A stretch of DNA of 22,573 nucleotides, taken from positions 1-22,573 of the IMG/VR virus record IMGVR_UViG_3300031951_001292. One strand, written 5' to 3'. The notes beneath the pieces were generated by a model. That model worked only from the letters and a program-made list of their open reading frames with translations. It was not told where the DNA came from and made no database searches. Position numbers and translations under genes: made by a program. Each line of letters opens with the position of its first letter. Positions within the stretch are counted from its first letter, which is position 1. This DNA comes from a virus. This document shows positions 7,279 through 20,470 of this stretch, in pieces.

Positions 7279-7637
7279 TTCGTCAACTCGTGTTGCATCA
7301 CGGTGAGCAGTGCCCGGTGCGACAGCCGCTCAAGCCACCAAGTTACTAGCCACTGTACTACCGCCGCCGCAACGGCTTGCAGCAGGAAGATCCAGATGAA
7401 CCCGTACTCGCGCGGCTCCTGCCCGCTCATCGCCTGATGCTCACGCTTGATCTGGGTCAGCAACGCATGCACGTACACGTCCCGCTGCTGGTTGTCGCGG
7501 CAGGCGGCGAGGTAGTCGCCCGACCAGTTCGCGACCGAAAGCTGCACGAGGTCATTGACCGTGTCGCGGCCGACGAGCCTTTTGCGAATCGGCGGCAGGG
7601 CGGCCCAGCACTGGGCTTGGAGGTCGGCGAGGTTCAT
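7275..7637 (-). CDS. One-helix membrane protein of unknown function, 120 aa
   Basis: The start ATG 7637 overlaps the upstream stop as TGATG and has AAAGG about 7 bases upstream; an upstream extension lies inside the previous gene. The N-terminal 75 residues (MNLADLQAQCWAALPPIRKR onward) are soluble and probably helical, with Trp/Tyr-rich turns. A hydrophobic helix follows at about 78-102 (FIWIFLLQAVAAAVV then QWLVTWW), and a short basic tail ends in MQHELTK. The Trp-rich helix and small size would fit an accessory holin, an antiholin or a membrane anchor. Its position between a lipoprotein and a holin-like gene supports envelope work, but no family was recognised. Confidence 0.65.
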   Translation of the reverse strand: MNLADLQAQCWAALPPIRKRLVGRDTVNDLVQLSVANWSGDYLAACRDNQQRDVYVHALLTQIKREHQAMSGQEPREYGFIWIFLLQAVAAAVVQWLVTWWLERLSHRALLTVMQHELTK

Positions 7638-7888
7638 CAGCGGACCTTTCCTGTGCCGTCGCACGGCTGGCATTTCACCTTAACGCGACCATCACCCACG
7701 TAACCGCGCCCCTCGCAGTTCTCGCAACGGTCGCCCGGCTTCGGCTTGTCGTCGGGGGCGTCGGGCTTGCGGCTCTCGATGATGGCCCTCGCCGTCTCGA
7801 CAGCCAGATCCGCAGTGATCGTCGGGTCATCCGGCAGCGTAGCCACGCAGCCAACTAGCACGACGGTAAAGCAAACCACCCACCTCAC
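7637..7888 (-). CDS. Lipoprotein with DnaJ-type CxxCxGxG zinc-finger signature, 83 aa
   Basis: The start is GTG 7888, overlapping the upstream stop as GTGA. A short hydrophobic signal (VRWVVCFTVVLVGC) ends in a lipobox L-V-G-C with the lipidated Cys at position 14, so the mature chain should be membrane-anchored and outside the cytoplasm. A linker of about 40 residues follows. The end carries two CxxCxGxG motifs (C55-G62 and C73-G80), the repeat that binds zinc in DnaJ/Hsp40. A secreted lipoprotein with this finger is unusual. Its size and lysis-region position recall outer-membrane spanins (Rz1 type), but those are normally proline-rich, and no embedded or adjacent inner-membrane spanin is obvious. 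Confidence 0.75.
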   Translation of the reverse strand: MRWVVCFTVVLVGCVATLPDDPTITADLAVETARAIIESRKPDAPDDKPKPGDRCENCEGRGYVGDGRVKVKCQPCDGTGKVR

Positions 7889-8811
7889 AGCACGTCTCCT
7901 GTCCAGTCGGGGAGCTTCGTCGGCTGGAAGCCGGAGAACCCGGCGTACACGTAGCTGTCGCGGCCAGAAAGCATCTTGGTGCACGTCTCGGCGTCGATCC
8001 AAAACGAGCAGTTGCGAACCGGCGTGGGCATCGTCTCTGGGTAATGCTTGCCGACCGTGTTGCTATCGCCCCACGAGTTGAGGCAGAGCAGTCCGGGTCG
8101 CCTCCCGAAGCGGCAGCCTGCCAGAACCATGCAGTGCCACCAAACACCGCCGGGCCGGCAGAAGCCGTCCTCATCGCGGCTCATCGAAAATCCTTGGCCA
8201 CTGCACACCACCGTTGGAAAACCGTTTTGGATCGCCGCAGCGGCTTCCTCAAACGTGGTGGCAAGTGTGGTCTCGCTGCACCGCCGCAGCTTGGCGAACG
8301 GCTCCAATGCGTCGGGCACGCCGTTGCGGCCCCAGTCCCGATCTCGCTGCTGCTTATCCCGCTCGGGGATGATCGTGCCGCCGTAGTCGATGCCGTAGTG
8401 CAGAGAGCCGAAGTCGCGGATGCTTTTGGCCGCGTGGAACCCAGTGGACCCGTCGCCTCCGTTGTTCACCCGCTGGCCGCGAGCCTCGACGCGAGAGAAC
8501 CCGTACAGGCTGGCCTCGACCGTGCGGCCCACCACAACTTCGGGCTCCTTCCGATAGACCACGTCACAAGCCGCAACGAAGTCCACCGCGAGCGCCGCGC
8601 CCCAGCCCACGCACGAGCCCACATTGCCCTGCGATCCACGACGCCAGCCGGGGAGGCATTGCAGCAGGGCGGGGTACAGCATCACCTCCCGCTTATCATC
8701 AGCGTGGAAGCCTGGAGCCGCCGTCGCCAGCGTCGGATGCGGCAGCGTAGCCACGAAGGCTTCGGCACCGGCAGGATCGGGCAAATACCCAAAGGCATGC
8801 GGCTCGGCCAC
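7885..8811 (-). CDS. Papain-like (C1 family) cysteine peptidase, 308 aa
   Basis: The start is GTG 8811 with GGAGGT seven bases upstream, three bases past the preceding stop. The whole papain catalytic set is recognisable in order: Gln61 and Cys67 in QGNVGSCVGWG (oxyanion Gln and nucleophile), His226 in VWWHCMVLAGC, and Asn245 in the hallmark LNSWG. Additional features such as GFHAAKSIRDFG before a Gly-Tyr-rich loop match the fold. No signal peptide and no obvious inhibitory propeptide is seen, so it acts in the cytoplasm, is packaged into the virion, or leaves through membrane holes. Substrate is unknown: host peptidoglycan cross-bridges, a virion precursor, or host proteins. C1 peptidases are uncommon in phages. 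Confidence 0.85.
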   Translation of the reverse strand: MAEPHAFGYLPDPAGAEAFVATLPHPTLATAAPGFHADDKREVMLYPALLQCLPGWRRGSQGNVGSCVGWGAALAVDFVAACDVVYRKEPEVVVGRTVEASLYGFSRVEARGQRVNNGGDGSTGFHAAKSIRDFGSLHYGIDYGGTIIPERDKQQRDRDWGRNGVPDALEPFAKLRRCSETTLATTFEEAAAAIQNGFPTVVCSGQGFSMSRDEDGFCRPGGVWWHCMVLAGCRFGRRPGLLCLNSWGDSNTVGKHYPETMPTPVRNCSFWIDAETCTKMLSGRDSYVYAGFSGFQPTKLPDWTGDVL

Positions 8812-12600: not shown

Positions 12601-12944
12601 GACAGCTTCTCTACGAGCTTCCCGAGCAACTCGCACACAGACTCCATCCTCTTCAGCAGTTCGCTTGTTGCGTGATCTGCCTGCCGCAAGGCTGGCTGCT
12701 TGCTGCGGCTTGCCTCGCTCTCGGCAAACCGACGCAGAAACGCATCGGCTTCGTCCTTCTTGACGAGCGTTCCGTAGACGCCGCGAATGTTCTGCACGCC
12801 GAACTCAGGCGGGTTCTTCTTCGACGCAGCCAGCAACCGGCGGTAGTCGTTTGATGGACCGCCCGCACTCTTGTCCTCTCGCGTGTCGTAGAACGACATG
12901 CGGACCCATCCCTCTGGAATATCGCTCACTTGTTTCCCTTTCAT
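12597..12944 (-). CDS. Hypothetical protein with coiled-coil tail, 115 aa
   Basis: The start ATG 12944 overlaps the methyltransferase stop as ATGA; the longer frame upstream is antisense-like arginine-rich sequence. The N-terminal part (MKGKQVSDIPEGWVRMSFYD) is followed by a basic patch (NDYRRLLAASKKNPPEF) and a Gly/Tyr turn (IRGVYGTLVKKDEAD). The last 45 residues (AESEASRSKQPALRQ, then a Leu-rich heptad-like helix ending in ELLGKLVEKLS) look like a coiled coil that could oligomerise. No catalytic motif is seen. It lies between the methyltransferase and the first glycosyltransferase and may scaffold that pathway, or be unrelated. Confidence 0.6.
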   Translation of the reverse strand: MKGKQVSDIPEGWVRMSFYDTREDKSAGGPSNDYRRLLAASKKNPPEFGVQNIRGVYGTLVKKDEADAFLRRFAESEASRSKQPALRQADHATSELLKRMESVCELLGKLVEKLS

Positions 12945-13519
12945 TTCTTCTCGCACCACGCCACTAGCAGCCCGTTCCAGTAGCCCGCCGCATCGTTCAG
13001 CCGGTCGCTCGGATACACGTTGCGGCTTACGACGTTCATCCTGCCACCGAGTGCAAGCATTCCAGCGTCGCACCCACGATGCACCTGCTCCCATGAGTAG
13101 TCGTCCACGATGTAGATGAACGCTTCCGCTAGATGCGGCCACGCAATCGCAAGCTCGCGGGCGTGATGCTCTTCCTCGTGCGGCCCATCGTAGAGGTACA
13201 CGGTGAACGTCATGCCGCCGAACGTGTCGGCAGGCAGCGGCGCAAACCAATCGCGGTCGTGAATCGTCGCCGGCAAGCCGACACGCTCGCACGTCGCCAG
13301 TAGCTCCGCTCGCGTGTCGCCGAACTCGCTGTGATTGTCGATCATGTGGATGCACTCCACGTCGTTTCCGTGGCACATCGCTACGGCGGTCGAGCCCTTG
13401 TAGGAGCCGACTTCAAGGATGCGGGCACGCGGCACCGTGGCGACGGCATCATTCAGCAGTCGCCGGTTCGCGGCAGAGGAGAAGCCCGGTAGGGCGAGTG
13501 CGTCGAGCCAGGATGCCAT
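12941..13519 (-). CDS. Class I SAM-dependent methyltransferase (Methyltransf_24-like), 192 aa
   Basis: The start ATG 13519 overlaps the RusA stop as TGATG. ARILEVGSYKGSTAVAM (about 32-48) is the glycine-rich SAM-binding loop (motif I), and HMIDNHSEFGDTRAELL gives the acidic residue at the end of strand 2. VYLYDGPHEEEHHARELAI (about 108-125) and FIYIVDDYSW (about 134-143) match the D-G-x-H and V-D-D signatures of the Methyltransf_24 group. That group often methylates sugars, cephalosporin precursors or small molecules. Adjacent glycosyltransferases make sugar O-methylation an attractive guess. It could also be a nucleotide or protein methylase, so the substrate is open. Confidence 0.8.
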   Translation of the reverse strand: MASWLDALALPGFSSAANRRLLNDAVATVPRARILEVGSYKGSTAVAMCHGNDVECIHMIDNHSEFGDTRAELLATCERVGLPATIHDRDWFAPLPADTFGGMTFTVYLYDGPHEEEHHARELAIAWPHLAEAFIYIVDDYSWEQVHRGCDAGMLALGGRMNVVSRNVYPSDRLNDAAGYWNGLLVAWCEKK

Positions 13520-13923
13520 CAGCAGATCCGCACGGTGGTGCGGCCCTCCGTTCCCCACGACTTCTCGACCACCACCCGCCCCACCTGGGTGTCGTCCACC
13601 CACGCCACGCCATTGAGCGAGTCTTCGATTCCCTTGAGCACGTTCGAGCAGTCGGCTCGCGGCAGCTTGGGGGCGTCTTCCCGCAGCCCGCTCTTGCGGT
13701 AGTGCGACTTCGGGCGGGCGAACACGAGGTCAATGATGAGCGTGATCGGTGCCGCGTCGGTCGGCGTCGCGCCAGCTTCGACGGCAGCCGCCGCAATCGC
13801 AGCCCGATAGGCGTGAATCTTGTGATCGCTCGGCGTGTAGGCGTGCCCGTGCCGACCACGCACCGTAATGCGTGCACGAGGCTGCGGCACCGGATCACCT
13901 TCGACAGAGAACGCAATCGCCAT
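13519..13923 (-). CDS. rusA: RusA-family Holliday junction resolvase, 134 aa
   Basis: The start ATG 13923 is two bases past the stop of the upstream 48-residue gene; GGGGAT lies close upstream. The family pattern is complete: VEGDPVPQPRARI near the start, GHAYTPSDHKIHAYRAAI, and then the acidic active site in ADCSNVLKGIEDSLNG (Asp91, Lys97, Asp101) and WVDDTQV (Asp110, Asp111). RusA is a Mg-dependent dimeric endonuclease that cuts four-way junctions and is common in lambdoid and other phages, where it resolves recombination intermediates before packaging. Length is slightly above the 120 residues of the E. coli enzyme. Together with the Sak4-like ATPase and SSB-like protein it forms a recombination set. 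Confidence 0.9.
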   Translation of the reverse strand: MAIAFSVEGDPVPQPRARITVRGRHGHAYTPSDHKIHAYRAAIAAAAVEAGATPTDAAPITLIIDLVFARPKSHYRKSGLREDAPKLPRADCSNVLKGIEDSLNGVAWVDDTQVGRVVVEKSWGTEGRTTVRIC

Positions 13924-14772: not shown

Positions 14773-15882
14773 TCAGTCCTTCGCAAGGGGCATGATGACG
14801 CCCGTGAACGTGTCGGTCTTCATCACCACCGCCGAGACGTGATCCTTCGCCTGGATCGACACAGTCGGCTCACCATCCGCCGGCAGGCCCGCGAGCCACT
14901 CACGCACGAAGAGCGGATCGAGCTTCACCGTGCAGTCGTTGCCCGCCTCCACGATCTCGCACGTCACGCTCGACTCACCCGCCTCGGACGATTGCCCGTG
15001 AAGGTGAATCCCCTCCTTCGTGAACGTGTAGTCCACGCCCTTCGACTGCTCGCTCGTCACGACCGCCGCCGCCCTGGTCGCCGCGAGCAACTGCTCGGCA
15101 GTCACCGTCGTCGGCTCAACGTCGTGCTCAGGCACGGCGTCACGCCAACGCGGGAACCGACCGTCCACAAGCCGACCCGTGACCGTCGTGCTGCCGATCT
15201 CCACGATCACCTCGTTGGTGGTCGCGTCGATCTGCACACCCTCGTCACCGGCAGCGTGGGCGATCTTCGCCACGATGGCAGCAACCCGGCTCGGGATGAG
15301 CGTGGTGGAATCGTCCACCGCGAGGTCGTGGCTCATCTCGGCAATTGACAGCCGCCGCCCGTCAGTTGCCACAAGCGTCACCGCGTCACCCTGCACTTCG
15401 AGCAGCACAGCCCCGAGGGCGTACCGGCTGCTCTCGCCGTCCACCGCGTAGCCCACGCCCTTGATCGAGCGGTAGAGCTGGTCCGCCGGCAGCCGCGTCA
15501 CCGGCTTCGGGTCGGTCGGCTCCCACGTCGGAAACTCGGCAGCGTCCTCCGTGGGCAGAGTCCACGTACCAGACCCGCACCGCACGACGCACTTCGTGCC
15601 GTCAGGGCTCAGCGTCACCTCGTCGCCGCTCGATGCCGACAGGATCGCCGCGAGCCGCTGATAGGGCAGCAGGATCGCGTCGCCGTGGTAGTCGAGCACA
15701 ACGTCGATCCGAACTTCGAGGTCGGTCCCGGTCACCAGACCGTCACCAATTCGGACGTTTTGCAGGATCGGCTTCGGGCTTCGGCTTGGTACAGCCGGGC
15801 CGACAGCCGCCAGAGCAGCCCGCAGTTCGTTCGCCGGCAACGTGATGCCGGCCGACTTCGCCTTCCGTGTTGCAGTCGCCAT
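14773..15882 (-). CDS. dnaN: DNA polymerase III sliding clamp (beta subunit), 369 aa
   Basis: The start ATG 15882 is preceded by AAGGAAGGAACC. The sequence is a full-length three-domain clamp: ITLPANELRAALAAVGPAV (domain 1), ALGAVLLEVQGDAVTLVATD with the hallmark ATDGRRL (172-178) at the end of domain 2 strand, GRFPRW (241-246) equivalent to G-x-F-P-x-Y, and the end GVIMPLAKD where bacterial clamps have V-M-P-M-R-L. The clamp encircles DNA and holds polymerases and repair enzymes. A phage-borne clamp presumably recruits host Pol III or a phage polymerase encoded outside this window. Length agrees with the family (about 366). A linked clamp-binding protein follows immediately. Confidence 0.9.
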   Translation of the reverse strand: MATATRKAKSAGITLPANELRAALAAVGPAVPSRSPKPILQNVRIGDGLVTGTDLEVRIDVVLDYHGDAILLPYQRLAAILSASSGDEVTLSPDGTKCVVRCGSGTWTLPTEDAAEFPTWEPTDPKPVTRLPADQLYRSIKGVGYAVDGESSRYALGAVLLEVQGDAVTLVATDGRRLSIAEMSHDLAVDDSTTLIPSRVAAIVAKIAHAAGDEGVQIDATTNEVIVEIGSTTVTGRLVDGRFPRWRDAVPEHDVEPTTVTAEQLLAATRAAAVVTSEQSKGVDYTFTKEGIHLHGQSSEAGESSVTCEIVEAGNDCTVKLDPLFVREWLAGLPADGEPTVSIQAKDHVSAVVMKTDTFTGVIMPLAKD

Positions 15883-15994: not shown

Positions 15995-16230
15995 AGACCG
16001 AGGCCCGGATCGTCTTCCGGCTCCAGTAGCGGCCAGTGCGGATGTACAGCGGCCTCGGCACGTTCGAGGTGCAGGGCTTGCCGCAGCAGCCGCCGCGCGG
16101 AATTGCGGAGCGTGTCGGCTGCGATGTTCAGCGTGATCCGAACGTCAAGCGGCACGCGGAGGTCGGATGCTGTACTAGCGCACAACTCCGCGACCGCATC
16201 GACGCTGAGGGCTCTAGGACGCGATCTCAC
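15991..16230 (-). CDS. Hypothetical helical protein, 79 aa
   Basis: The start is GTG 16230, overlapping the LexA-like gene stop as GTGA. The protein is helix-rich: ALSVDAVAELCASTASDLRV, then VRITLNIAADTLRNSARRLL, then a His/Glu-rich segment and a short acidic tail (PLLEPEDDPGLGL). Arginine-rich helices could bind nucleic acid or a protein partner. It is followed directly by the overlapping membrane protein and dnaN. Function unknown; it may be a small regulator in the replication block. Confidence 0.55.
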   Translation of the reverse strand: MRSRPRALSVDAVAELCASTASDLRVPLDVRITLNIAADTLRNSARRLLRQALHLERAEAAVHPHWPLLEPEDDPGLGL

Positions 16231-16472
16231 GCCACACCTCCAATCACCCGCACCGTGCGTGCCTTGCCGGGCTCGCTGGTCACGTAGCCCTTCCTGTGCA
16301 ATCTGGCGAGCACTTCCTGCGCAGCGTTGGGTGACGAGTACCCCATCGCCGCCGCAAGCTCTCGCCGAGTTGCTGGATACCCGGGCTCGATCTCGTGGCG
16401 AGCCAGGAACTCCATCGCTCTCCGCTCCCGCTCAGTCAACGCGGGACGATCAACCGCAACAGCAGCAGCCAC
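16227..16472 (-). CDS. LexA-type DNA-binding domain protein without peptidase domain, 81 aa
   Basis: The GTG at 16472 is chosen because AAGGAGG lies six bases upstream; a TTG start at 16511 in the same frame is less likely. Residues 12-77 align in pattern with the N-terminal winged helix-turn-helix of LexA: LTERERRAMEFLARHEIEPG, then YPATRRELAAAMGYSSPNAA, QEVLARLHRKGYV, and a wing with KARTVRVIGG. LexA would continue into a self-cleaving Ser/Lys peptidase domain; here the chain stops, so it cannot autocleave. It probably acts as a small repressor or as an origin-adjacent regulator, possibly binding the palindrome at 16500-16519 just upstream or competing with host LexA. Confidence 0.8.
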   Translation of the reverse strand: MAAAVAVDRPALTERERRAMEFLARHEIEPGYPATRRELAAAMGYSSPNAAQEVLARLHRKGYVTSEPGKARTVRVIGGVA

Positions 16473-16473
16473 A

Positions 16474-17052
16474 TCAGCCTCCTTGCTTCTCGCCCGGCTG
16501 GCCGTTTCCAAAAACGGCCTCGCCGGGCGTGGGGGAATTACTTATTCCCCCCTTGGTATTACTTGGAATACCAAGGGGAATAACTTGTAAGGGTGCACCG
16601 GGGGTGTGCGCTGCGCACACCGCTCGTGTGCGCTCTGTCCACACCGTGTGTGCGCTCCGTACACGGCTCGTGTGCGCCCCGTACACCGGGGGTGTGCGCT
16701 CTGTACACGGCTCGTGTGCGCCTTGGTCTTGTTTTTGAGTCATCAAAATCTCGTACTCAGCCCGCCCTGTCGGTGTCTTTCTGACCAACTTCAGGGCGTT
16801 GGCCTGTACAAGCTGCTGGATGCCACGGATGACAGAGTTCGGGCTGACGCCGATGGTGCGGGCCGCTCCGCGAAGGCTCACCTTGAGCAGGCACGTACGA
16901 AAATCCGCCCAGCAAAACACGTAGAACGCCATCATCCGGCCCTCACTCCGCAGGCTGGCGAGGGTGCCAGACTCCACGAAAGCCCTGTGACGCCTCCGTA
17001 GCTCGCCACGGGGGTCTTTCGGGCGAACCTTGGCTGCCGGCTTCTCAGGCAT
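16474..17052 (-). CDS. Replication-initiator-like winged-helix protein containing the iterons, 192 aa
   Basis: ATG 17052 overlaps the end of the helicase gene by 8 bases, with GGAG about 8 bases upstream. Residues about 40-103 look like a winged helix: MMAFYVFCWADFRTCLLKVS, LRGAARTIGVSPNSVIRGIQ, and QLVQANALKLVRKTPTG with a RAEYEIL strand, as in phage replication and plasmid Rep proteins. The last 80 residues are low-complexity and encoded by the 22-bp repeats and the long palindrome, so the DNA rather than the protein is probably what is conserved there. By analogy with lambda O it may bind the repeats and load the helicase encoded just upstream. It could instead be an autoregulator. Confidence 0.7.
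   Translation of the reverse strand: MPEKPAAKVRPKDPRGELRRRHRAFVESGTLASLRSEGRMMAFYVFCWADFRTCLLKVSLRGAARTIGVSPNSVIRGIQQLVQANALKLVRKTPTGRAEYEILMTQKQDQGAHEPCTERTPPVYGAHTSRVRSAHTVWTERTRAVCAAHTPGAPLQVIPLGIPSNTKGGISNSPTPGEAVFGNGQPGEKQGG
16500..16519. promoter_or_regulatory. Perfect 8-bp-arm palindrome upstream of the LexA-like gene
   Basis: GGCCGTTT at 16500-16507 and AAACGGCC at 16512-16519 form an exact inverted repeat around four bases (CCAA on the plus strand). It ends 28 bases upstream of the GTG start of the LexA-like gene and lies inside the C-terminal coding end of the upstream gene. It is a good candidate operator for that repressor-like protein, or an RNA hairpin. No run of T follows closely on the minus strand, which argues against an intrinsic terminator. 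Confidence 0.5.
16537..16586. other. A+T-richer block with phased ATTACTT-type motifs and a long hairpin (candidate DNA unwinding element)
   Basis: Three related motifs lie in phase: ATTACTT at 16537-16543, ATTACTT at 16558-16564 and ATAACTT at 16580-16586, spaced 21 and 22 bases, about two helical turns each and matching the 22-base period of the neighbouring iterons. Overlying this is a near-perfect palindrome: the arm at 16542-16560 (TTATTCC..TTGGTATT) pairs with 16567-16583 (AATACC..GGAATAA) around a six-base loop, with two extra C. GGGGGAAT at 16531-16538 can alternatively pair with ATTCCCCC at 16544-16551. Local G+C is clearly below that of the surroundings. Confidence 0.6.
16590..16721. 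repeat. Six tandem 22-bp dyad repeats (iteron-like array, candidate replication origin)
   Basis: Read on the minus strand, six units each begin GCGCACAC and contain a dyad of the form CACACG-AGC-CGTGTAC. Plus-strand boundaries are 16700-16721, 16678-16699, 16656-16677, 16634-16655, 16612-16633 and 16590-16611; the last is the most divergent. The period is 22, not a multiple of three, so the encoded peptide changes frame from unit to unit, which argues that the DNA is what is maintained. Position inside an initiator-like gene and next to a primase-helicase gene matches the plan of lambda ori. Operator function for a regulator is the alternative. Confidence 0.75.
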
Positions 17053-18790
17053 TGCCTTGGCTCCACGAGGCGAATTCGGGGATTTCCAGCATCACGTCCT
17101 CGAACGTCTGGTACTGCCCGTGGAACCACAATTCCACGTCCTTCCGCTCGCCCTGCCGGAGCTTCTTGCACAGCCACCGGATCTTCAGTTCGCCGTTCTC
17201 GCCTGTCTCGTCAGTCCGGTGCCCGAACAGGAAGTTGTCCACGTCGAAGTCGATCTGGTTGCTTCCCTTGCCGATGTTGCCGATCTCGGTCGTGTGATCC
17301 ACGCCCTTGGCGATGTTCGTGACCAGGATGGTGGCGACGTTCCGGGTGGTCGTCAGTTCTCGCAGCTTGAGCAAGCATTCGTTGATCTCGCCCGTCTTGT
17401 CGGTGAACGCCCGCGTGCTCCGCACTAGCTGGAGGTAGTCCACGATCAAGAGCTTCACGTCGTCCTTCACGACGGCCCGCTCGATCTTGTCGATGACCAG
17501 TGGAGCCTCGATCAGCTTGAGCCGCCGTCCGATGGCCTCGCTCAATGACGCGCCGATCTCCTTCGAGTTGCCTTCCTTGCGGATCACCTGTTGCAGGGTC
17601 AGCCCTTCGTTCATGCCGCCCCAGTTGGTGATCGCACGAGCCGCCAGTGCCGGCCGCGTCATCTCGCCCAGGCACCACGCCGCGTTGAGCACAGGGTCTT
17701 CGGCGAGGCAGAGCAACGCGAGTTGCAGGGCGAGCGCCGACTTGCCGACGCCTGGAGCCGCAGCCACAGCCGTCATCTGGCCGAGCGGAAGCCCGCCGTC
17801 GAACAGCTTGTCGATAGACGCGATCCCGGTCTTGACCGCTGGCGTCTCTTCTTGGTCGTGCCACGCCTGGATCGCGTCGCACAGCGTGGGCGTCGCCACG
17901 TTGTCGTCGGCATCCTGCACGGGCTGCGCCTCGTCAGCCGAGCCGAGCACCGGAAGACGAGTCCGCTTCCAGGCGTTGGCGATCTGACGCGGGCAGTCTT
18001 CGAGGTCGTCCTGCCTGAGCCCGACCGCACGCATGCGGCCCATGATGAGCGTCGTAGCCTCGCCCACGCCCCAGCCACGCGCCGCCAGATCGCAGGCCAC
18101 CGTGAACATCGTCTGCCGGCGACCGGCCGCGAGCGTGAACCCCTCTTCGAGGAACCGTCGCGTAAGGTCGCTCATGCTCTTTGGCGTGACAACGACCGAC
18201 TGCGAAGCCATCCTTGAGAAGCGAGAGAGCGGATACACCCGCGTCGCGTCGCAATCCTTCAGCACCGACAGCGGTCGTTGCTCATGCTTCCAGTTGATGA
18301 AGCCCGGCAGCCGCATGATTCGCGGCCAATCGCAGACCGACGAGTCGGACCCGAGAGCCCCGGCGATAGCCTTCATCCGCACGGTCCACGCCTCGTGGTC
18401 GGTCATCGGCTCTTCGAGCCGCCACCACGCATGCACCCCGCCGCCGCTTTCGAGGATGGCTGTGGGCCAGGGCAAGCTCGCCGCCTTGATCCGCGAGTAC
18501 GCTTCCTCAAGGATCACGCCGCCGTCGAAGTCAGCGAACAAACACCGGGCCAGCTTCACGCCCTCGGCCTGGGATGCCCCCTTCTCCTTTCTCGGGTTAG
18601 CCCCGAAGTAGGCATGAACCCGCTGCTGCTCATCGGAGTTGACCCGTTGGAGCCAATCCACGATGTCGGGGATCTCGGCGAGCGGGCACCACCGCCGACC
18701 GGCAGATGGCGGCAGCGGGCGGAATTCGATGATGTCCTCGGGCTCGAAGATCGCGCCGAGAAAGTCAATGCACTGGGAAAGCGTGTCCAT
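17045..18790 (-). CDS. Primase-helicase fusion: AEP-type primase plus DnaB-like helicase, 581 aa
   Basis: ATG 18790 has AGGGG upstream. The N-terminal half has archaeo-eukaryotic primase (RepB/PriCT-like) motifs: FADFDGG with Asp87 and Asp89 (metal-binding DxD), ESGGGVHAWWRL with the SGGGVH motif (115-120), and VCDWPRIMRLPGFINW (Asp154). A linker with helical PriCT-like content (about 205-280) leads to a RecA/DnaB helicase domain: GIASIDKLFDGGLPLGQ, Walker A AAPGVGKSA (about 344-352, Lys350), Walker B LLIVDYLQL (447-455, Asp451) and a motif H4-like LCKKLRQGE (540-548). It should unwind the fork and lay primers. Such fusions occur in phages, and plasmid RepB-type primases are related. The initiator-like gene is coupled just downstream. 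Confidence 0.85.
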   Translation of the reverse strand: MDTLSQCIDFLGAIFEPEDIIEFRPLPPSAGRRWCPLAEIPDIVDWLQRVNSDEQQRVHAYFGANPRKEKGASQAEGVKLARCLFADFDGGVILEEAYSRIKAASLPWPTAILESGGGVHAWWRLEEPMTDHEAWTVRMKAIAGALGSDSSVCDWPRIMRLPGFINWKHEQRPLSVLKDCDATRVYPLSRFSRMASQSVVVTPKSMSDLTRRFLEEGFTLAAGRRQTMFTVACDLAARGWGVGEATTLIMGRMRAVGLRQDDLEDCPRQIANAWKRTRLPVLGSADEAQPVQDADDNVATPTLCDAIQAWHDQEETPAVKTGIASIDKLFDGGLPLGQMTAVAAAPGVGKSALALQLALLCLAEDPVLNAAWCLGEMTRPALAARAITNWGGMNEGLTLQQVIRKEGNSKEIGASLSEAIGRRLKLIEAPLVIDKIERAVVKDDVKLLIVDYLQLVRSTRAFTDKTGEINECLLKLRELTTTRNVATILVTNIAKGVDHTTEIGNIGKGSNQIDFDVDNFLFGHRTDETGENGELKIRWLCKKLRQGERKDVELWFHGQYQTFEDVMLEIPEFASWSQGNA

Positions 18791-19651: not shown

Positions 19652-20470
19652 TTACGCCAGCCGTGGCGTTCTCGGGGTCTTCGTTCTCAACTGGGTCCAA
19701 TCTGCGTAGGCAGACTCAAATAGTCCGACCGATCTGTGACCGAGGTGCATCCGGCCTGCGCCGGGCGAGGCCATCTCGCAGTGAGTCGCGCCCGATCGCC
19801 TCAGCCACTTCGACGTGCCGCCGACGCCAACCTCATCGAGTAGCTCGCGGATGATCCGCATGGCTTGCCGGGGCTTGCACGCCCATCCGAGAATCCGCCC
19901 GTCTGGGCTGGCTGCGAGCATGGCCCGGCAGGCTTCGATGCAAGGCTCAGAGAGCAGCCGCACAATCGCGTCGCCGGTCTTGCCCTGCGTCCACGCGATG
20001 GCGTCGCCGTCCATGTGCTCGCCAGTAAACCGCCACAGGTCGCCGTGCCGGGCTCCGCACTCGTAGCCGAGCAGCACCCACGCCCTAAGAAACTGCCCCT
20101 TGTCGGCACCGCTGCGGAGGAGCCGCTTGTCGTATTTCCGCGTGGCCTCGACCACCGACTGAAGCTGTTCGACAGTCCACGCCCGCGTCGGGGCACGCCG
20201 GGCCTTGATCCGCATGATGCCGCGCGGGGCTTCGTCAATGAGCCCGGATTCGTATGCCCACTTCCACAACGACACGAGGATGACACGCTCGCTGCGAACC
20301 GTGACCGTGCTGCACACAGCAAGCCGCCGACGCAGGTGATCGTTGATCGCCTGGGCGGAAACCGTAGGGCAGCCCCGGCAGACTCGCTTCACGTTGTATG
20401 CGTAGAGCTTTGAAACCACTCGCTCGGCGAGGTATCGCTCGGCAAGTTCAGCCATCTTGATCGTCTTCAT
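19652..20470 (-). CDS. int: Tyrosine recombinase (phage integrase), 272 aa
   Basis: ATG 20470 has AAGGAAGC upstream. The N-terminal 95 residues form a SAM-like core-binding domain (LAERYLAERVVSKLYAYNVK, then RRRLAVCSTVTVRSERVILV). The catalytic domain contains Arg141 in GARHGDLWRF, Lys164 in WTQGKTGDAIV, a box II R224 in KWLRRSGATH where the usual His is replaced by Lys (K221), His245 in LGHRS and Tyr255 in FESAYADW. All required Arg, Lys, His/Trp and Tyr functions appear, so it should be active, with the H-to-K change in box II as a point of note. It implies a temperate lifestyle or dimer resolution. Its position inside the replication cluster rather than beside an evident att site is unusual. 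Confidence 0.85.
   Translation of the reverse strand: MKTIKMAELAERYLAERVVSKLYAYNVKRVCRGCPTVSAQAINDHLRRRLAVCSTVTVRSERVILVSLWKWAYESGLIDEAPRGIMRIKARRAPTRAWTVEQLQSVVEATRKYDKRLLRSGADKGQFLRAWVLLGYECGARHGDLWRFTGEHMDGDAIAWTQGKTGDAIVRLLSEPCIEACRAMLAASPDGRILGWACKPRQAMRIIRELLDEVGVGGTSKWLRRSGATHCEMASPGAGRMHLGHRSVGLFESAYADWTQLRTKTPRTPRLA

Follow-up and report, generated by a model that had tools for sequence, protein, structure and literature searches.

A region around six tandem 22-bp units in the 3' part of a winged-helix gene is very probably the replication origin of this phage lineage, located within its own initiator gene. The best reading of the sequences is a lambda-like origin, with iterons inside the initiator gene, that would serve an AEP-primase/DnaB-helicase fusion. 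This reading is based on the finding of the array wherever the winged-helix gene was present and of no array in relatives lacking the gene, and on a near-invariant half-site with an 11-bp pitch, a codon-position pattern in a frame that stays open, and co-change of positions -6 and +6 at the level of the phage. It draws further on a joint switch of iterons and protein in one clade (class II), on two more distant loci with the same plan, on O-like PHROG matches and on hairpins with compensatory changes. The points against it are that there was no GC-skew reversal, no family match for the protein of the window and no link to lambda O.

The window, which is the whole stretch of 22,573 bases that was analysed, is an IMG/VR record representing a phage fragment in which the recognized genes all lie on the minus strand. 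The array had been placed, in an earlier note on this DNA, inside a winged-helix gene coupled to a gene for a helicase fused to a primase, and this was confirmed: the 192-aa ORF reads through the array and overlaps by 8 bases the primase-helicase ORF (Table 1), whose single 581-aa product carries an AEP-type primase domain (PF16793, E 8.3e-8) and a DnaB helicase domain (PF03796, E 1.8e-22) according to Pfam. Residues D87, D89, H120 and D154 and the Walker A motif PGxGKS were invariant in 19 relatives of this protein.

Table 1. Positions of the putative origin elements and adjoining genes in the window
Feature	Position	Strand	Evidence
Primase-helicase fusion, 581 aa	17045–18790	-	Pfam, PHROG
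192-aa ORF, winged-helix domain and origin-encoded C-terminal tail	16474–17052	-	ORF list, homologues, AlphaFold model, PHROG matches of relatives
Winged-helix domain, aligned part	16756–17037	-	Alignment; invariant R14, R16, G24, A59, R71, G72
Iteron array, six 22-bp units, each GnnCAC-n5-GTGnnC	16593–16721		Two repeat programs, motif scan, relatives
Hairpin 1, AT-richer inverted repeat CCCCTTGGTATT-ccaagt-AATACCAAGGGG	16549–16578		Inverted-repeat search, relatives
Hairpin 2, GC-rich stem-loop CGCCCGGC..GGCCGTTT-ttgg-AAACGGCC..GCCGGGCG	16491–16529		DNA fold
Next gene, protein with LexA-type DNA-binding domain	16227–16511	-	Pfam PF01726, E 2e-17
DNA polymerase sliding clamp, DnaN-like, replication gene in same cluster	14773–15882	-	Pfam; PHROG phrog_947, E 5.6e-56

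The six tandem units, originally reported at 16590–16721, proved to be real, and a period of 22 was returned both by Tandem Repeats Finder (5.7 copies, 16596–16721) and by a second repeat search (unit spacings 22, 22, 22, 22). Identity at lag 22 was 0.72 over 16593–16721, compared with a mean of 0.29 (sd 0.047, maximum 0.45) in 1000 dinucleotide shuffles, and no 132-bp stretch in the rest of the window exceeded 0.43. Read on the minus (gene) strand, the units are GCGCACACGAGCCGTGTACAGA / GCGCACACCCCCGGTGTACGGG / GCGCACACGAGCCGTGTACGGA / GCGCACACACGGTGTGGACAGA / GCGCACACGAGCGGTGTGCGCA / GCGCACACCCCCGGTGCACCCT. The motif GnnCACn5GTGnnC was found at 16593, 16615, 16637, 16659, 16681 and 16703, and the remainder of the window contained a single further match, at 18384. 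As had been pointed out, 22 is not a multiple of three and the reading frame shifts at each copy; the six units together (132 bp) are a multiple of three.

Comparison of 163 units from 25 representatives gave the consensus GnnCAC-n5-GTGnnC, in which CAC and GTG were almost invariant, with G at -8 in 154 units and C at +8 in 156. The half-sites are 11 bp apart, centre to centre, both within units and between adjacent units, and alternate in orientation, giving one half-site per helical turn throughout the array. Most of the seven-unit arrays shared the spacing 22, 23, 22, 22, 22, 22. The inverted symmetry within units, described previously as internal dyads, was present, but is better read as dimer half-sites than as hairpins. 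When right halves were shuffled among the units of one phage, pairing at -6/+6 and -7/+7 did not fall, whereas shuffling between phages lowered -6/+6 pairing (fewer than 1 in 2000 shuffles). Positions -6 and +6 thus change together by phage and not by unit. The symmetry is a property of the phage, which would fit the reading of both half-sites by a dimer specific to that phage, and not of individual units, which would be expected if each of them had to fold. Folding of the 22-bp units into hairpins was rejected at most positions by the within-phage shuffles; position -2/+2 was a modest exception (unit-level pairing 0.62, compared with 0.50), and some hairpin role of the units may therefore remain.

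A single-sequence search of viral contigs with the 192-aa protein of the window returned no relative, because this protein diverges fast, and the helicase was used as the query instead. This identified 42 loci, 34 of which had DNA beyond the helicase; 32 of the 34 had a homologue of the winged-helix gene in the corresponding position, and the contigs of the other two ended at that point. Beside the helicase, the same kind of array was present in 31 of these 32 loci, and the remaining one (L025) carried other iterons. A search with the winged-helix profile found 33 contigs, largely those already found via the helicase, and the array was present in all 33, although many of the contigs are close kin and the counts are not independent. 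Relatives having the protein without the repeats, a combination that the earlier note considered would speak against an origin, were not found among these matches. In a large group of relatives (L094–L132) with primases 32–50 % related and quite different downstream genes, the next gene did not encode this kind of winged-helix protein and there was no such array. The winged-helix protein was not found in any annotated phage, and this gene order was absent, as annotated, from the phages with the nearest primases (Moraxella Mcat23, Pseudomonas Ab19, Rhizobium TM26 and Aeromonas KLEA5). Genome matches were few and were all in Planctomycetota or Phycisphaerae MAGs, which suggests, weakly because the matched loci are distant, that the hosts are probably planctomycetes.

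Seven contigs (L025, L065–L068, L070 and L071), referred to here as class II, carry a different 22-bp array (TGTTCC/GGAACA) with the period unchanged. The three of these that were put into trees formed one clade in both the helicase and the winged-helix tree, on a short branch in the former (0.16) and on the longest branch of the latter (1.22). The class II helicase was 75–76 % identical, whereas the winged-helix protein was very divergent and the C-terminal tail encoded by these phages was different. The hairpins after the array aligned with those of the other class. This joint switch, together with the presence–absence pattern, provides the best evidence from sequence comparison that the winged-helix protein and the repeats may work together. 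The same plan was seen in L090, whose helicase is 45 % identical and whose iteron unit is AAGGGGCTATACAATCACGAAC (2.8 copies). In L052 (Phycisphaerae MAG, 7551–8117) a winged-helix gene follows an AEP-DnaB fusion (30 % identity) and carries GCTCnnnnnGAGC repeats in its 3' part, a layout which may mean that the plan predates this group of phages.

Substitutions at codon positions 1, 2 and 3 were counted in eight non-overlapping pairs of relatives. The counts were 101/78/249 for the winged-helix domain, 35/35/35 for the array and 51/44/47 for the stretch after the array, with per-site rates of 0.171, 0.089 and 0.117, respectively, and the pattern differed between domain and array (p = 1.7e-5, chi-square). 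The equal and slower change at all three positions of the array indicates that the DNA, not the peptide, is conserved; this answers in the affirmative the question, raised in the earlier note, of whether the repeats persist as the peptide changes, and agrees with the view given there that the protein does not explain the repetition, the domain before the array being strongly biased by codon position. The frame of the ORF was open in 24 of the 25 arrays (the other two frames were stopped in 7 and 12) and, over the 110 bases after the array, in 22 of 25, compared with 10 and 1 for the other frames. Taken with the codon-position result, this suggests that the C-terminal tail is probably translated, but with a sequence that would be dictated by the DNA. 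Selection for a repetitive peptide encoded by the repeats would also account for the open frame, but this is scarcely credible given that the codon-position test contradicts it, that the frame shifts at each copy and that class II encodes a different tail.

The earlier note missed two more inverted repeats, hairpins 1 and 2, which form part of the same conserved structure. An inverted repeat was present just 3' of the array in all 25 representatives, with the AT-rich repeat 11–23 bases and the GC-rich stem-loop about 63–76 bases past the last unit. Compensatory changes were detected at 11 of 14 pairs in hairpin 1 and at 8 of 10 pairs in hairpin 2 (19 of 24 in total), these being few counts from related sequences in an alignment of 23 relatives that was made on sequence and not fitted to structure. 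In the hairpins 91 % of cells were paired, compared with 33–46 % with slid partners, and one pair showed all four Watson-Crick types unbroken (T-A 9, A-T 6, C-G 4, G-C 4). The stem sequence of hairpin 2 varied between phages while its pairing was kept, and the loop usually contained GG. The conserved hairpin 1 region lies directly after the array, in the manner of the AT-rich tract beside the iterons of lambda-type origins, and is possibly a duplex-unwinding element. Hairpin 2 is a possible single-strand priming site; ssi sites are likewise hairpins.

On the gene (sense) strand, G-T mispairs outnumbered A-C mispairs by 16 to 3 in the two hairpins, which suggests a structure formed by that strand, either in RNA or in single-stranded DNA. 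The hairpins are candidate priming or RNA signals. This excess, together with the strong folding computed for the sense strand (RNA z -6.9, DNA z -8.8), would also be compatible with the units and hairpins acting in RNA, as a structured mRNA that is bound, is processed or regulates translation of the following genes. We consider this unlikely, since the repeated units show no unit-level covariation at -6 and -7 and keep their CAC/GTG sequence, and since no Rfam family scored above threshold (two chance-level matches were far below it).

AlphaFold predicted a confident winged-helix-type fold for the domain of the 192-aa protein (pLDDT 88.9; helices H31-43, H55-62 and H66-78), for which Foldseek found only generic winged-helix folds in the PDB, none below E 0.001. 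The protein of the window had no family match in Pfam or PHROG, and the label 'initiator-like' given to it previously is thus not borne out directly; it is supported through relatives that match PHROG replication-initiation families, the best being L025 with the 'replication initiation O-like' family phrog_678 (1.3e-8), and through the L052 protein, which matches a PHROG 'replication initiation O-like' family (E 5e-4). Comparison of the winged-helix profile with lambda O by hhalign gave no match. The IncQ RepC family was absent from the Pfam and PHROG matches listed, and weak RepL and RP-C matches were obtained for two relatives each. On these data the winged-helix protein probably works like O.

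Generic HTH matches were also obtained (MarR, GntR and Crp types), and initiators often autoregulate, both of which would be in keeping with a regulatory protein that recognizes the array as an operator inside its own gene and so controls transcription of the operon. This is very unlikely, as the array lies within the operon and, with six to eight dyads, has far more of them than an operator needs, and as hairpins 1 and 2 would be left unexplained; an influence on transcription may be a further consequence of binding. Partition sites, too, combine a small winged-helix protein with tandem dyads and with repeats adjacent to a gene, and one relative encodes a ParB-like/methyltransferase fusion elsewhere. 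The array might accordingly be a centromere or partition site (parS/parC-like) and the protein a TubR-like or other adaptor of a plasmid-like prophage. This interpretation is very unlikely, however, as no ParA, ParM or TubZ gene was recognized beside the array in the window, the gene overlaps and travels with the primase-helicase gene, the relatives match replication-initiator PHROGs, and the AT-rich and GC-rich hairpins beside the array are more in keeping with an origin.

Comparison of the relatives thus favours the candidate origin embedded in an initiator-like gene that was first proposed, with the putative origin extending past the array into the two hairpins. A reversal of GC skew at the array, looked for as a further sign of an origin, was not seen: the skew kept one sign along seven contigs of 37–49 kb, its slope changing at most some kilobases ahead of the array, and it therefore neither localizes nor excludes an origin. 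From the sequence patterns we infer binding, dimer state, unwinding, helicase loading, priming and the start of replication at the array, as follows. The winged-helix protein would bind the six dyads as dimers, with one on every 22 bp (two helical turns), and would so form a protein–DNA complex resembling the lambda O-some. Strain from this complex would open the adjacent AT-rich inverted repeat, and the primase-helicase fusion, which the overlapping gene upstream encodes, would be loaded on the exposed strand and would then prime, perhaps at the conserved GC-rich hairpin.

In lambdoid origins, gene O contains inverted-repeat iterons and an AT-rich tract in its central part, and its product works as a dimer (PMC7466680). 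The present locus resembles ori-lambda in its DNA-binding initiator, its tandem inverted-repeat iterons located mid-gene in a coding sequence that stays open, its AT-rich tract and its neighbouring helicase-step gene, and, as in lambdoid Stx phages, extra iterons lengthen the initiator protein (PMC7466680). The likeness to lambda suggested earlier holds for the iterons in an initiator gene beside a helicase-step gene. The winged-helix profile has no detectable sequence relation to lambda O, although some relatives match O-like PHROG families. An adjacent P-like loader of host DnaB is absent, its place being taken by the primase-DnaB fusion. In addition, the helicase-step gene here precedes the initiator gene, and the iterons are 22 bp long with the half-site GnnCAC and are followed by two conserved hairpins. 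This is the same plan as that of lambda, but a separate, fast-changing version of it.

The IncQ origin oriV of RSF1010 is served by the RepA helicase, the RepB' AEP primase and the RepC initiator, and has the sites ssiA and ssiB (PMC4538821). Similarly, the phage locus encodes a candidate iteron-binding initiator, its own replicative helicase and its own AEP primase of the RepB_primase type (PF16793), with invariant catalytic-type residues, and has candidate single-strand sites near the iterons (PMC4538821). It differs from RSF1010 in that primase and helicase are fused, the iterons lie within the initiator gene, the hairpins are putative as priming sites and no RepC-family initiator was among the matches listed. 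The protein set is closer to that of RSF1010, while location and design match lambdoid origins. The SaPI Rep origins and the SCCmec Cch2/CCPol-MP system are also mobile elements with their own helicase, primase and nearby iterons, but there the helicase itself binds the iterons (PMC7581432), whereas the candidate for this role in the phage locus is the winged-helix protein, which is distinct from the helicase. No single phage module combining these features, with primase and helicase fused, was found in the literature searched. Rather tentatively, the locus could be a self-contained module of an O-like initiator, a loader-free AEP-primase/DnaB fusion and a two-hairpin origin, in which the hairpins would be primase start signals and initiator and iterons would switch specificity together between close relatives, the helicase remaining unchanged.

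The group offers a natural series of fast-diverging initiator–origin pairs beside a nearly unchanged helicase, in which the co-evolution of initiator and iterons can be followed at the level of single residues. Origin hairpins preserved through compensatory change beside an AEP primase are here open to experiment, and the site of replication initiation is predicted for uncultured phages (bacterial viruses) without a named relative.

The gene after the winged-helix gene encodes a LexA-type protein, and if it starts at the GTG near 16472, as we read the sequence, the two genes would overlap at the stop codon of the initiator ORF. Pfam and PHROG scans of the window proteins showed that the cluster also encodes an SSB-like protein, an AAA_24 protein and an integrase-like protein. 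No DNA polymerase was recognized among the scanned window proteins or the ten larger ORFs of a 48.8-kb relative; the polymerase may come from the host and be paired with the phage-encoded clamp. The integrase-like gene is situated within the replication cluster (19652–20470; phrog_1, E 9.7e-21), which may point to a temperate phage or to a role of this gene in some other recombination. A protein with a methyltransferase domain (PF13578) is encoded at 12941–13603, among several ORFs without a Pfam match.
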